DNA from: Candidatus Poribacteria bacterium | GTDB taxonomy: Bacteria > Poribacteria > WGA-4E > WGA-3G | NCBI GenBank assembly: GCA_022821965.1 | Contig: JAJECN010000020.1 | Span: forward strand, 186,001 to 250,000 | Direction: 5' to 3' | DNA: 64,000 nucleotides | Shown: piece by piece, positions 31,052 to 37,353 of the stretch | How the letters are laid out: every line of letters starts with the position of its first letter | Position numbering within the stretch: the stretch's first letter is position 1 | Made by a program: the position numbers and the translations under genes | Notes under the pieces: model-generated | What the model was told of the DNA's origin: nothing | Seen by the model: only the letters and a program-made list of their open reading frames with translations | Databases searched by the model: none

Positions 31052-34000
31052 ATGCCGAAACTCAACCTCAAACCCACCCACAAAGCAATCCGCGACTACT
31101 ATGCTACGCTGCAACAATATGAACAACACGACATCACACACGAAGGCGCGGTCAGTTCACCCTTCGATACACTCCTCCACACCTGTGCAAAACAGGTGAA
31201 CGCTACACTCGTTCCGCAATATCCGATGCGTACCTCAAAAGGAAACCGGATCGTCATTGATGGGGCAATCCTCGACGAATACGGACTCCCGATCGGCTAC
31301 TGGGAAGCGAAAGATATAGACGACGACCTCACCAAAGCCGTGCAGCAGAAACAGAACGCAGGCTATCCGCTCGACAATATCCTCTTCCAAACGCCACGGC
31401 GCGCTATCTTATACCAGAACGAACAAGAGGTCCTGGACATTGACATTACGGAACCAGCAAACCTGATTGCCGCACTCCAATACCTATTCTCTTATGTGCC
31501 ACCCGCGCTGGACAACTGGCACACCGCCGTCTCCGATTTCAGAGCACACGTCCCAGACCTCGCAAGCAAACTAAAGGAGCTCATCGAGCAACGCCACGAA
31601 ACCGATCCAGCCTTCAAGAAAGCGTTCTCCGATTTTTACGAAACCTGCCGCACCGCGATTAACCCCGAACTCTCACAGGATGCCGTCGAGGAGATGCTCA
31701 TCCAGCATATCCTCACCGAACGCATCTTCAGGACTGTCTTTAACAACTCCGCCTTCACCCGCCGAAATATTATCGCACGTGAGATTGAAAACGTCGTTGA
31801 CGAACTCATCCGGCAGGCGTTCAGTCGCGAGGAATTTCTCACACCCTTAGACAGGTTCTACGTCGCCATTGAGCAAGCCGCGATGCTCTGCAAAGACTTC
31901 ACCCAAAAACAGCACTTCCTCAACACGTTCTATGAGAAATTCTTTCAAGGGTTCTCCGAAGATGTGGCGGATACACACGGCATCGTCTACACACCGCAAC
32001 CCATCGTCGATTTCATGGTGAACAGTGTGGCACATATCCTCGAAACCGAGTTCGGTCGATCGCTCTCGGATACGGGGGTGCATATCATCGATCCATTCGT
32101 CGGTACGGGCAATTTCATCGTCCGTCTCATGCAGGACATCCAAGGCACAGCGTTAGAGGCGAAATATCGTCATGAGCTCCACTGCAACGAGGTGATGCTT
32201 CTGCCCTACTACATCGCCAGCCTGAACGTTGAACAGGAATACTTTCAACGCACAGGGACGTATCTACCGTTTGAAGGCATCGCGCTTGCGGATACGTTTG
32301 AGTTGCTTGAACAGCAGCAAGGCGAACTCTTCACGCGTGAGAACACAGAACGCGTAAAGAGACAGCAGGCGGCGGATATGTTCGTCGTTATCGGCAATCC
32401 GCCTTATAATGCGTGGCAGGTTAACGATAGTGACAACAATAGGAATCGAAAATACGCGGTGATGGATAAACGGATTACAGACACCTACGCCGCAGATTCC
32501 AAGGCGACACTCAAAAACGCGCTCTATGACCCATACATAAAAGCTATTCGATGGGCTTCGGACCGGATTGGGCAGGAAGGTGTTGTTGCATTTGTAACAA
32601 ATAATGGCTTTCTTGACGGTTTGGCGTTTGATGGCATGCGAAAACACCTTGCAGACGATTTTGATGCGATTTATGTCCTGGATTTAGGGGGGAACGCCCG
32701 GGAGGGATTGAAGGTTTCCAATGCTAATGTGTTCGGCATTCGAGTCGGTGTGAGCATCAATTTGTTTATAAAAAATAAGGATAAGTCATCAGGGAAACCC
32801 AATATCTTTTATTTTCGCACCGATGACTTGTGGAATAAGGAAAGAAAATTTAATTTTCTCAATGAACACCAACACACAGGAAACATAGAATGGAATTCAA
32901 TTCAACCAAATAAGCAGTCCACATGGTTAACGGAAGGACTTCACATTGAGTTTGACACCTTTATTCCAATGGGGACCAAGGAAGCAAAGGCACAGAAAAG
33001 TATAGCAGAAAATGTGGTTTTTAAAACTTACAGCAATGGTATTAAAACTAATCGTGATGCGTGGGTTTACAACTTCAATCGAAACGCCCTCACCGAGAAT
33101 GTTCAGAGAATAATTGGCACTTACAACGCTGAGGTGGATAGGTGGAAGCGTCGAGAGGATCAGCGGATAAATGCCAGTGATTTTGTAATTTATGATGACT
33201 CAAAAATCAAGTGGGATCAGGAATTACGTCGGCACTTGCAACGTGGTAGGTTTGCTGAATGGACAGAAAGCAAGGTGCGAACATCGCTCTACCGTCCGTT
33301 CACAAAATCCGATCTGTTCTTCGACCGCGTTCTAAACAATAGAGTCTATCTGCTTCCATCCATTTTCCCGACACCTGAGACAGAAACGGAAAATAAGGTA
33401 ATATGTGTTGCAGGCATTGGTAACAGAAAAAGTTTTGGATGCCTTGCGACCAACAATATCCCTGCCTTAGATTTGGCATTTGAGAAGGCTCAATGCTTCC
33501 CATTCTACACCTACGACGAGGACGGCACAAACCGACGAGAAAACATCACCGATTGGGCATTGACAGAATTCCGAACCCATTACGGCGATGACACCATCAC
33601 CAAATGGGACATTTTCCATTACAACTATGCCCTTTTACATCACCCCACCTATCGCGAGAAATACGAGATGAACCTCAAGCGCGACCTGCCGCATATCCCT
33701 TTCGCCGAAGACTTCTGGGGATTTGCCACTGCAGGCGAGGCGTTAGCAGACCTCCACATCAACTACGAATCCGCTCCGAAATATGATGGACTGAAATATA
33801 TCGAAACACCCGGTATGACAGTGAATTGGCGTGTTGAGAAGATGAAACTCTCCAAAGACAAGACGCAGCTGAAATACAACGATTTCCTCACACTGGACGG
33901 TATTCCTGCAGAAGTATATAACTACCGGTTGGGGACGCGTTCAGCGTTAGAATGGATAGTGGATCAGTATCGCGTCAAGGTGGACAAACGAAGCGGCATC

Positions 34001-34114
34001 GTCAACGACCCGAACCGTGAGGCAGAACCGCAGTATATCGTAGACCTCATCGCCCGCGTCATCACCGTCAGCCTAAAGACGGTGGAGATAGTCAAAAACT
34101 TGCCTACGTTGTAG
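31052..34114 (+). CDS. single-chain restriction-modification protein, type ISP/IIG-like
   Basis: A 1020-residue protein. The N-terminus holds a PD-(D/E)xK nuclease-like pattern, Asp70 ... Glu85-Ala-Lys87 (IDGAIL ... YWEAK). A helical linker is followed by an N6-adenine methyltransferase with SAM motif DPFVGTGNF (347-355) and catalytic NPPY (449-452). The C-terminal part (HYNYALLHHPTYREKYEMNL, then WIVDQYRVKVDKRSGIVNDPNR) matches the type ISP specificity domain. The helicase domain of canonical type ISP enzymes is absent. The gene has no Shine-Dalgarno and may be translated from a leaderless message. Recognition site unknown. Confidence 0.82.
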   Translation: MPKLNLKPTHKAIRDYYATLQQYEQHDITHEGAVSSPFDTLLHTCAKQVNATLVPQYPMRTSKGNRIVIDGAILDEYGLPIGYWEAKDIDDDLTKAVQQKQNAGYPLDNILFQTPRRAILYQNEQEVLDIDITEPANLIAALQYLFSYVPPALDNWHTAVSDFRAHVPDLASKLKELIEQRHETDPAFKKAFSDFYETCRTAINPELSQDAVEEMLIQHILTERIFRTVFNNSAFTRRNIIAREIENVVDELIRQAFSREEFLTPLDRFYVAIEQAAMLCKDFTQKQHFLNTFYEKFFQGFSEDVADTHGIVYTPQPIVDFMVNSVAHILETEFGRSLSDTGVHIIDPFVGTGNFIVRLMQDIQGTALEAKYRHELHCNEVMLLPYYIASLNVEQEYFQRTGTYLPFEGIALADTFELLEQQQGELFTRENTERVKRQQAADMFVVIGNPPYNAWQVNDSDNNRNRKYAVMDKRITDTYAADSKATLKNALYDPYIKAIRWASDRIGQEGVVAFVTNNGFLDGLAFDGMRKHLADDFDAIYVLDLGGNAREGLKVSNANVFGIRVGVSINLFIKNKDKSSGKPNIFYFRTDDLWNKERKFNFLNEHQHTGNIEWNSIQPNKQSTWLTEGLHIEFDTFIPMGTKEAKAQKSIAENVVFKTYSNGIKTNRDAWVYNFNRNALTENVQRIIGTYNAEVDRWKRREDQRINASDFVIYDDSKIKWDQELRRHLQRGRFAEWTESKVRTSLYRPFTKSDLFFDRVLNNRVYLLPSIFPTPETETENKVICVAGIGNRKSFGCLATNNIPALDLAFEKAQCFPFYTYDEDGTNRRENITDWALTEFRTHYGDDTITKWDIFHYNYALLHHPTYREKYEMNLKRDLPHIPFAEDFWGFATAGEALADLHINYESAPKYDGLKYIETPGMTVNWRVEKMKLSKDKTQLKYNDFLTLDGIPAEVYNYRLGTRSALEWIVDQYRVKVDKRSGIVNDPNREAEPQYIVDLIARVITVSLKTVEIVKNLPTL

Positions 34115-34158
34115 ATCCATTCTTTTTTCAAAAATCAGAAAAACTGAGGAAAACTCTA

Positions 34159-34914
34159 ATGTTTAGATACTTTGTCGTTTTACTCACACTCGTCGGAATC
34201 TTCAACGATGTATCCGCACATAACAGGAAGATAGCATCGGACGGCTGTCATCGAGAAGGTGATTCTTATCACTGCCATTCCGCAGATACAACGATAGGTT
34301 TTATATCGAACGAAGCCCGCTATTACGAAGTAGACCGAGTTATTGACGGAGACACCCTCGATTTCATCTATAGCGACCAAGGTCCCATTACAACACGACT
34401 CTACGGTGTGGATACCCCTGAAAGCCGTAAAGGGGCAAAACTCACGAAAGATGCGAAATCTGTATTGGAACAACGTGGTATTACACGTGACCACGATGAC
34501 TATAATGACCTCTTGGAAGACGAGAAAGAGCGTCAATTGGAACTCGGCGCAGCGGCAACGCAATATGTCAAGGATACCCTCAAAGACAAGGATGTATTCG
34601 TGCTTTTCGAGGATTCTGACACATTTCCGTTTATCCAAAAGGATTCTGTAGGCAGGTTCTTGGCGTATGTGTTTTACACAGATGACACCGGGACTGGCAT
34701 GCTAAACTTGCAACTTATTGCCGACGGACATGCCGAAGCCGATTACCTGGACTCGCCATTCCGATACCGATGGGCGTTCATTGATGGCGACATAGACGCA
34801 GTAAGGGAAAAGATTGCGTCTGTGGCACTCCCAGAGAAGCCTGTACCACTTTCACCAGCACCCGATCATCGCCTCACAACTACTTGGGCATCCCTCAAAA
34901 AACGATACCGCTAA
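34159..34914 (+). CDS. exported thermonuclease (SNase-like) family protein
   Basis: A 251-residue protein with a signal peptide (to about NDVSA, residue 20). A short Cys/His segment GCHREGDSYHCH comes first and resembles the YHYH-type motif seen before nuclease domains. The SNase domain follows with RVIDGDTLDF and TRLYGVDTPESR, and later DSVGRFLAYVF. Staphylococcal-nuclease-type enzymes cut DNA/RNA outside the cell with Ca. It lies 44 bp after the restriction-modification gene. The charged insertion around residues 100-125 is longer than usual. Confidence 0.82.
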   Translation: MFRYFVVLLTLVGIFNDVSAHNRKIASDGCHREGDSYHCHSADTTIGFISNEARYYEVDRVIDGDTLDFIYSDQGPITTRLYGVDTPESRKGAKLTKDAKSVLEQRGITRDHDDYNDLLEDEKERQLELGAAATQYVKDTLKDKDVFVLFEDSDTFPFIQKDSVGRFLAYVFYTDDTGTGMLNLQLIADGHAEADYLDSPFRYRWAFIDGDIDAVREKIASVALPEKPVPLSPAPDHRLTTTWASLKKRYR

Positions 34915-34918
34915 AAAC

Positions 34919-34947
34919 TTGACACCAACCCTAACTTCCGATACAAT
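34919..34947 (+). promoter_or_regulatory. near-consensus promoter of the peroxiredoxin-like gene
   Basis: TTGACA (34919-34924) and TACAAT (34942-34947) with 17-bp spacing. The expected +1 is at ATG 34954, implying a leaderless transcript. Confidence 0.65.
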
Positions 34948-34953
34948 ATGCCC

Positions 34954-35451
34954 ATGCCACGCAAAAACAAGATACTCAACATCGGCGATCCCGCGCCGTC
35001 ATTCACACTGCCATCGCACCAACGCGAGGAAATATCGCTGGAAACCTATCGCGACGCGCAAAACGTTGTCCTAACTTTTTTTCGAGGAACATGGTGACCG
35101 AACAGCCGCCGTCAGTTGTCGGCAGTGCAAGAAAACGTCGAAAATTACGCGGAATACACAGCCACGCCGCTCGCGATAGCGGGACAGTGGCCCCGTGAAC
35201 TCCGAGGCTATGCCGACAAAAACGGCATTACATTCCCTTTACTGGTAGACAAAACCCGAAACGTCATAAAAAGTTATGGGGTCTACCACTGGCTCAGCTT
35301 AGAGGCTTACAACATCGCACGTCCCGCAACATTCATCATTGACAAAACTGGGATTATCAGATATATGTATATCGGCACGCATCAATTTGATCTTGTCCAA
35401 CAGACAGAACTCCTTGAATCGCTCAAAGAAGTGGCAGGACTACAAAAATGA
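34954..35451 (+). CDS. peroxiredoxin-like (AhpC/TSA) protein with in-frame TGA at the catalytic Cys; candidate selenoprotein
   Basis: Reading through one TGA gives a complete 165-residue redoxin. It starts ILNIGDPAPSFTLPS, continues VVLTFFRGTW-TGA-PNSRRQL, and ends with FPLLVDKTRNVIKSYGVY and ARPATFIIDKTGIIRYMYIG, the normal AhpC/TSA order. The TGA is codon 48, exactly where relatives have the peroxidatic Cys in W-C-P-x-C/S. Frame and length are otherwise intact for 117 codons. The protein has no Cys at all. Selenocysteine is the simplest reading. A 4-bp hairpin (GCCG 35108-35111, CGGC 35120-35123) follows, but it fits the bacterial SECIS rules poorly. A nonsense mutation remains possible. 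ATG 34948 is an alternative start. Confidence 0.65.
35095..35097 (+). other. in-frame TGA, candidate selenocysteine codon
   Basis: TGA in the frame of ATG 34954, between TGG (Trp47) and CCG (Pro49). TGA is used as an ordinary stop elsewhere in the window (35451, 41990, 43969, 53155), so general code reassignment is unlikely. Confidence 0.55.
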
Positions 35452-35576: not shown

Positions 35577-36680
35577 ATGGACGAAACACATATAGCCTTT
35601 ATGCAACGCGCACTCGACTTAGCACGGCAGGCGAAGGGACGCACGAGTCCGAATCCGCTCGTCGGCGCGGTCATTGTAAAGGATGGAAAGGTTATCGGTG
35701 AAGGGTATCACAAGAAAGCGGGAACCGCGCACGCAGAAGTCCACGCATTGAACGCCGCAGGCGAAAACGCCAAAGGTGCAACGCTTTACACGAATCTTGA
35801 GCCGTGTTGTCATTGGGGACGGACACCGCCCTGCACAGCGGCACTGATTAACGCAGGTATCGCCCACGTCTACGTCGCAGAAGTTGATTTGAATCCGAGT
35901 GTTGCAGGCAAAGGCGTTCAACAACTTCAAAATGCGGGTATCGACGTCCATGTAGGCGTATGTGAGCAGGAAGCATCAGACCTGAACGAGGTGCATCGAA
36001 AATACATTCAGACCGGCAAGCCCTTTGTTATCCTCAAAACTGCGATGAGCCTCGACGGAAAAATCGCCACTGTTTCTGGCGAATCGCAATGGATTACATC
36101 CGAGGCATCACGGCAGCGGGGACACGAGGTTCGGGACGCGGTAGATGCGATCCTTGTCGGTAGAGGCACAGTCGAACGTGACAATCCATCACTAACGACA
36201 CGGCTGCAGGATAGAGAAGGACAGGACGCGATTCGGATTGTGTTAGATTCACACGGGAAAACTCGCACGGATGCACGCATTTTCAATGCCGAAAGCGAGG
36301 CTGGCGTTATCGTGGCAGTAACGGCAGAGGCACCCCCTGAAAACGTTAACGCTTTGGAAAAGGCGGGGGCGGAAGTTATCACTGTTCCAGCATCGCACGG
36401 AAACCAGGTCTGTTTCAAAAGTTTGATGGAGATATTGGGCAAACGTGAGATAACAAGCGTCCTGATAGAAGGCGGTGGCGAAATCAACGCATCGGCGATC
36501 GCTGCAGGTGTTGTTGACAAGGTTATGTGCTTCGTTGCACCCAAACTCATCGGTGGTCAAGATGCCCCTGGACCGATCGGTGGAATAGGCATCCGCAGTT
36601 TGGCTGACGCAATAAACCTACAACGCATCAACATTACACAGATGCCTGAGCACGACCTTTTAATTGAAGGATACCTATAA
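35577..36680 (+). CDS. ribD: bifunctional pyrimidine deaminase/reductase RibD
   Basis: A 367-residue two-domain enzyme for steps two and three of riboflavin synthesis. The N-terminal deaminase has His52-Ala-Glu54 and the zinc cysteines Cys77 and Cys86 (EPCCHWGRTPPC). The C-terminal NADPH reductase domain starts near 145 (KPFVILKTAMSLDGKIAT) and contains ILVGRGTVERDNPSLTTR and VLIEGGGEINAS. Length and motif order are typical. One base separates the TAA from ribE's ATG. It opens a rib gene cluster whose later gaps are filled by repeats. Confidence 0.95.
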   Translation: MDETHIAFMQRALDLARQAKGRTSPNPLVGAVIVKDGKVIGEGYHKKAGTAHAEVHALNAAGENAKGATLYTNLEPCCHWGRTPPCTAALINAGIAHVYVAEVDLNPSVAGKGVQQLQNAGIDVHVGVCEQEASDLNEVHRKYIQTGKPFVILKTAMSLDGKIATVSGESQWITSEASRQRGHEVRDAVDAILVGRGTVERDNPSLTTRLQDREGQDAIRIVLDSHGKTRTDARIFNAESEAGVIVAVTAEAPPENVNALEKAGAEVITVPASHGNQVCFKSLMEILGKREITSVLIEGGGEINASAIAAGVVDKVMCFVAPKLIGGQDAPGPIGGIGIRSLADAINLQRINITQMPEHDLLIEGYL

Positions 36681-36681
36681 C

Positions 36682-37353
36682 ATGTTCACTGGGATCGTCG
36701 AGGAACTCGGAAAGATTAGAAGTATCCAAGTCAAATCTCAGGATGTGACACTTGAAATTCAGGCGACCGATGTTCTCAGCGATGCGAAGGTTGGTGACAG
36801 TATCGCTATTGACGGTGCCTGCCTCACGATCCGTTTTCTCACATCGGAAGCATTCACTGTTGATGTATCCGCTGAGACCTTGCGTAAGACAACATTGGGT
36901 GAGCGGAAAGTCGGAGACCCCGTTAATTTAGAACGTTCACTCCGACTCAGCGATAGGTTAGGTGGACATCTCGTATTGGGACACGTCGATGAGGTCGCTA
37001 CAATCTGTGGGTGGAAAGACGAAGGAGACGCTTCTCTGATGCAGGTAACGATAAGTAGTGCCACCAGACCTTACATCGCATATAAAGGATCGGTTACCGT
37101 CGACGGTGTCAGTTTAACTGTATCAAATCTACACGCAGATGCCTTTGAAGTCGCATTGATTCCACATACGAAGGACGTGACAACCCTCGGAGCGAAACGC
37201 ACCGGTGCAAAGGTTAATCTCGAAGTTGACATCATTGCGCGTTATCTTGAAACGCTTCTCAAAAATACCGAGGGGAAGAGGGAGTGGAACAATCAACCCT
37301 CTACCGAGACTCTTAATTTGAACTTTTTATCGAAACACGGCTATATCGAATAG
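36682..37353 (+). CDS. ribE: riboflavin synthase alpha chain
   Basis: A 223-residue protein that dismutates 6,7-dimethyl-8-ribityllumazine to riboflavin. MFTGIVEELG is the canonical N-terminus, which fixes ATG 36682. Two lumazine-binding repeats follow, with DGACLTI and VDGVSLTV. GAAGGA inside the end of ribD serves as ribosome binding site. The C-terminal ~20 residues (LSKHGYIE) extend past the second barrel as usual. Gene symbol ribE is used in the Gram-negative sense (ribC in E. coli). Confidence 0.93.
   Translation: MFTGIVEELGKIRSIQVKSQDVTLEIQATDVLSDAKVGDSIAIDGACLTIRFLTSEAFTVDVSAETLRKTTLGERKVGDPVNLERSLRLSDRLGGHLVLGHVDEVATICGWKDEGDASLMQVTISSATRPYIAYKGSVTVDGVSLTVSNLHADAFEVALIPHTKDVTTLGAKRTGAKVNLEVDIIARYLETLLKNTEGKREWNNQPSTETLNLNFLSKHGYIE

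Follow-up and report, generated by a model that had tools for sequence, protein, structure and literature searches.

The locus at 34954-35451 raises a plain question: does the TGA that interrupts an otherwise open, peroxiredoxin-like frame end the protein, or is it read as selenocysteine (Sec)? In the window, by which we mean the whole 64-kb stretch of DNA analysed, the frame runs for 165 codons from the ATG at 34954 to a stop at 35449-35451. Codon 48 (35095-35097) is its sole internal TGA, set in the context FFRGTW-TGA-PNSRRQL, and the read-through protein contains no Cys, all in agreement with the continuous redoxin frame described in the initial annotation. The read-through product matches Pfam AhpC-TSA (PF00578) over residues 10-138, on both sides of the TGA, with 104.5 bits (E 4.7e-30) against a gathering score of 26 bits. 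Of the 27 TGAs listed in the window that follow 25 or more open codons and precede 90 or more, only this one had both sides matched to a single protein family. Because the frame, the Sec machinery of the genome, the conservation of the TGA, its exchange for Cys in one relative and the purifying selection on the gene all agree, each of them read from sequence, we conclude that 34954-35451 is almost certainly a working selenoprotein gene in which SelB would direct Sec to UGA 48 of a peroxiredoxin-fold protein. The candidate selenoprotein first proposed for this locus is thereby upheld.

The proposed placement of the TGA within the active site is not. It was said to lie exactly at the peroxidatic position; in an ungapped stretch of the alignment it is found three residues upstream of the AhpC/TSA peroxidatic Cys column, which is occupied by Ser51, with Sec48 in the Thr column and Arg44 in the Pro column, and the column of the peroxiredoxin catalytic Arg is occupied by Pro124. 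These four residues are invariant among the orthologues, with the exception of Sec48 in one of them (G038, discussed below). In place of the PxxxTxxC(U) motif and catalytic Arg of peroxiredoxins the product thus has R44, U48, S51 and P124, and its UPNS motif gives it a UxxS arrangement on an AhpC/TSA fold, as judged from the model. In that AlphaFold model (pLDDT 90.4), Sec48 immediately precedes helix 49-60. The nearest neighbours in both sequence and structure are 1-Cys AhpE and BCP/PrxQ, and the best fold matches, Bcp4 (TM 0.88) and AhpE (TM 0.85), are what one would cite in favour of a selenoprotein that is a true peroxidatic Sec-peroxiredoxin with chemistry of the AhpE/PrxQ type. We consider such chemistry unlikely, as Arg44, Sec48, Ser51 and Pro124 occupy the four catalytic positions at which peroxiredoxins have Pro, Thr, Cys and Arg. 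As predicted from its residues, the site is of the UxxS type with a probable cis-Pro, thioredoxin/TlpA-like on a peroxiredoxin fold, and not PxxxTxxU.

The source genome (5.7 Mb in 62 contigs, its close relatives all named Poribacteria) contains selA, selB, selD and tRNA-Sec. The tRNA-Sec gene (C20:46857-46946, 78.1 bits), which ARAGORN also calls as tRNA-Sec with anticodon TCA (UCA), directly adjoins selB (C20:47005-48900, 348.9 bits); selA is found on contig C54 (600.2 bits) and a Sec-type selD, with an in-frame TGA of its own, on C15 (359.2 bits). The TGA of selD (L134:753-1811, G000:C15) is at the active-site Cys position (KCAGUASK), so that SelD is itself a predicted selenoprotein. ARAGORN found no tRNAs in the window. 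Across genomes, selA scored above the curated cut-off in 77 of the 98 searched; a full selA was not found in some genomes with the TGA form of the gene, such as G030 and G050, both about 95% complete, probably as a result of incomplete assembly or missing contigs.

Codon 48 is TGA in 49 of the 50 relatives that we inspected base by base. A scan of genome contigs gave 47 Poribacteria orthologues: 46 are full-length, each with its TGA precisely at codon 48, and one is truncated but likewise shows TGACCG; in a wider genome search nearly every full-length orthologue was listed with one TGA. TGA 48 is also found in G058, G060 and G061, which belong to other families of the same order, and the TGA form is kept down to 56% identity, the 46 full-length named loci showing no internal frameshift and no further internal stop. 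Several TGA-bearing relatives are single-contig chromosomes, and the presence of the same TGA across independent assemblies, these included, excludes a local sequencing error. The one Cys-bearing orthologue, in G038, is 79% identical and has TGT at codon 48 (FFRGTWCPNS), so that the TGA aligns with the Cys of a homologue between flanks conserved on either side, the pattern by which bacterial selenoproteins are recognized. Since TGA is present in both the surrounding and the more distant relatives, the direction of this exchange was most likely from Sec to Cys. G038 retains selA and a TGA-bearing paralogue, and its region downstream of codon 48 still folds (-12 kcal/mol); Sec-to-Cys changes that leave remnant hairpins have been described (PMC1794560). 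A second relative without a stop, G081, was considered as a Cys orthologue and rejected, as it is a different Cys paralogue (FYRGYWCPVC). Among relatives, then, the TGA is kept, Cys appears once and random stops do not occur, and the putative gene in its TGA form is conserved among the Poribacteria, a group of bacteria associated with marine sponges. Two of the outcomes that the initial annotation named as refuting, a genome lacking Sec machinery and relatives with random stops and frameshifts, were looked for and not found.

Downstream of the TGA, change is biased towards synonymous sites, with a median dN/dS of 0.09 (pairs with dS below 1), and pN/pS is alike before and after it (all-pairs medians of 0.13 and 0.14); the codons after the TGA are, on this measure, under purifying selection. 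The same figures bear on the possibility that the gene has two products, with UGA acting mainly as a stop that yields a 47-residue peptide, or being followed by a restart at TTG 35116 (111 residues), and read-through only minor. The frame from TTG 35116 is open, but selection is equal on either side of the TGA and the 47-residue piece would break off within the fold, immediately short of the active site, and we regard this arrangement as very improbable. Premature termination is an ordinary by-product of selenoprotein synthesis. There is next to no chance that the gene is a pseudogene, an ordinary Cys gene altered by a TGC- or TGT-to-TGA nonsense mutation or by sequencing error: this reading can draw on the usual role of TGA as a stop, which it also has at the end of this same gene, but it is refuted by the recurrence of the same TGA in dozens of species, to 56% identity, without frameshifts or random stops, and by purifying selection beyond it. 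Equally negligible is the chance that UGA is translated as tryptophan or some other standard amino acid, or that the code is altered in the lineage. Reading TGA as W does leave the frame open, but a full Sec machinery including tRNA-Sec UCA is present, the sole natural replacement is Cys and not Trp, the other TGA genes of the genome also place TGA at redox-active positions, and TGA terminates the gene itself, both in the window's copy and in those of several relatives, which argues against a general sense role for this codon.

With insertion of Sec at UGA 48 as the preferred reading, the sequence just downstream becomes a candidate SECIS element. The initial annotation had described a hairpin of only 4 bp, without a G at the start of its loop; we find a better stem, GCCGUC/GUCGGC, in which 35108-35113 pairs with 35118-35123 with one U-U mismatch, flanked by outer pairs 35105/35126 and 35106/35125 and closed by the loop AGUU (35114-35117), with G at position 2. 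Published bSECIS rules call for a loop of 3-9 nt, a stem of 4-16 bp, a G within the first two nucleotides of the loop, a distance of 16-37 nt after the UGA and at most -7.5 kcal/mol (PMC13188914), and the window hairpin agrees with every one of them (16 nt, AGUU, -8.6 kcal/mol). As coded here, the rules are passed by 33 of 51 orthologues and also by 79 of 249 random window TGAs, and are thus unspecific. Pair covariation in the AGUU hairpin is not significant (its score was reached by 84 of 500 shuffles), and the 89.6% of cells that are paired are without excess over shuffles; RNAalifold, run on the orthologue region, gives another, weak helix that overlaps the UGA (-2.5 kcal/mol), without compensatory changes. 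The folding z-score against synonymous recodings has its lowest mean of all positions, -1.0, right after the TGA. In L072-L075, where Leu55 is TTA, the hairpin appears by inspection to be re-paired one base later, with a five-base loop, AGUUA.

Codon choice gives a stronger SECIS sign than covariation. Besides the uniform AGY at Ser51, both Arg columns use CGY (100 of 102), Gln54 is CAG in 51 of 51, though CAG and CAA are used equally elsewhere in the gene, and Leu55 is TTR in 51 of 51; outside codons 51-55 the same amino acids use all their codons. The normalized codon entropy of codons 51-55 averages 0.27, compared with 0.76 elsewhere, lower than in any other run of five columns in the gene. 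None of 20,000 random five-codon draws reached this value, a count that is not a strict probability, the sequences being related. Constraint on codon choice of this kind is found just downstream of the TGA and nowhere else in the gene.

The good promoter and leaderless start claimed for the gene also hold up, as TTGACA-N17-TACAAT is present and a promoter of this form is conserved in 41 of 47 sequences. At all 41 loci with TTGACA a 17-nt spacer is followed by a TATAAT-like -10 element, which in 39 of them ends exactly 6 nt before the ATG, and no Shine-Dalgarno-like motif is found in any of the 47 orthologue upstream regions. The conserved promoter and its spacing support a leaderless mRNA for the predicted gene. 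In most relatives ribD and ribE (35577-37353 in the window) come after the selenoprotein gene; an Rfam search found no FMN riboswitch between it and ribD, the whole window being without Rfam matches. Upstream, 31052-34914 has two ORFs, the first for a protein of 1020 residues that includes an NPPYN motif of the methylase type and the second nuclease-like. In flanks of at most 3 kb, matches to the first occur at just 3 of the 47 loci from relatives and the second has none, and given this near-absence both look inserted.

Table 1. Features of the locus, in window coordinates.
Feature	Position	Strand	Basis
-35 element TTGACA	34919..34924	+	exact consensus; TTGACA in 41/47 orthologue upstream regions, window included
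-10 element TACAAT	34942..34947	+	17-nt spacer; ends 6 nt before ATG
Predicted peroxiredoxin-like selenoprotein gene	34954..35451	+	165 residues including Sec48; Pfam AhpC-TSA, TGA orthologues, AlphaFold model
TGA codon 48, predicted to be read as selenocysteine	35095..35097	+	TGA 50/51, TGT (Cys) 1/51 aligned sequences, window included
Ser51 codon, column of canonical peroxidatic Cys	35104..35106	+	AGY 51/51
Predicted SECIS hairpin	35105..35126	+	fold -8.6 kcal/mol; codon-choice constraint peak at codons 51-55
Pro124 codon, catalytic-Arg column, probable cis-Pro	35323..35325	+	Pro 51/51; Arg in nine distant peroxiredoxin relatives
ribD-like gene, conserved downstream neighbour	35577..36680	+	present in 39/47 orthologue loci

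In the mechanism that we propose, SelB carrying Sec-tRNA(UCA) would be directed to UGA 48 by the hairpin that closely follows it within the coding sequence, the presumed role of that element, and Sec would be placed where the first long helix of the peroxiredoxin fold has its N-terminus. Its selenol would most likely be the sole nucleophile, with peroxide, sulfenic acid or disulfide as conceivable substrates, and attack would give a selenenic acid or a selenenyl-sulfide. Since the protein has no other Cys, resolution would fall to an outside thiol, either thioredoxin or a small thiol. It is possible, if rather doubtful, that the orthologues constitute a Poribacteria-specific subfamily of mono-selenol redoxins, with R, U, S and P in place of the four peroxiredoxin catalytic residues and Sec acting alone, that combines a thioredoxin-like site, a leaderless mRNA and a genomic tie to riboflavin synthesis; were that so, its chemistry would be distinct from that of both the TxxU peroxiredoxins and the UxxC oxidoreductases.

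In four other AhpC/TSA-fold genes of the genome a TGA falls on an active-site position, and in one of these genes it does so at two places. The paralogue G000:C6 has a UxxC arrangement (FYRGGWUPFC) and a gene on C62 has the arrangement UGTC. A double-domain PrxQ-like protein (C12:32777-33673; L132:1158-2183) has FTGGU and FGRGU, with Sec predicted at the canonical peroxidatic position of each domain and hence two Sec per chain. A TlpA-like protein (L168; G000:C12:69432-69770) has its TGA in WGSWUGCRGQL, of the UGC type.

Most bins of sponge symbionts, from various phyla, have been reported to carry SelA and SelB together (PMC5649159). The genes described here supply concrete candidate selenoproteins for a sponge-associated phylum, where the passage of that study on selA and selB does not name what they serve. 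We found no reports on Poribacteria selenoproteins in the literature searched, a body that lacks many subscription journals. Standard annotation likely splits or drops the gene, in dozens of Poribacteria genomes. The G038 orthologue offers a natural Sec-to-Cys pair with a leftover hairpin. The predicted leaderless start, conserved in this Sec gene, would allow a clean test of whether recoding through SelB depends on ordinary initiation.

Among known systems, the closest solved relative by sequence is the 1-Cys peroxiredoxin AhpE (Rv2238c) of Mycobacterium tuberculosis (E 1.3e-16); its fold is among the closest, but identity is about 30% and the catalytic residues are not shared. The TxxU selenocysteine peroxiredoxins, which the double-domain C12 gene of this genome (FTGGU, FGRGU) resembles, have the same Pfam family (PF00578) and overall fold, whereas in the product of 34954-35451 the Thr, Cys and Arg columns are occupied by Sec, Ser and Pro, respectively. 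Closer in arrangement are the Prx-like thiol:disulfide oxidoreductase selenoproteins (PF00578, UxxC/UxxU; PMC13188914, PMC1794560, PMC2398784), which also have Sec first in a CxxC-like motif; their second Cys is an invariant Ser here, and it is the C6 paralogue that fits UxxC. Prx-like selenoproteins with UxxC, UxxU and UxxS have already been catalogued (PMC13188914, PMC2398784), and a 2026 review of selenoproteomes lists an AhpC/TSA peroxiredoxin-like family protein (cd02970) of the UxxS type, represented by MDX2448127.1 (PMC13188914). The AhpC/TSA fold and UxxS are common to that entry and to the protein described here, a likeness that rests on fold and motif, and the Poribacteria protein is a new, phylum-restricted case of this catalogued UxxS Prx-like type.
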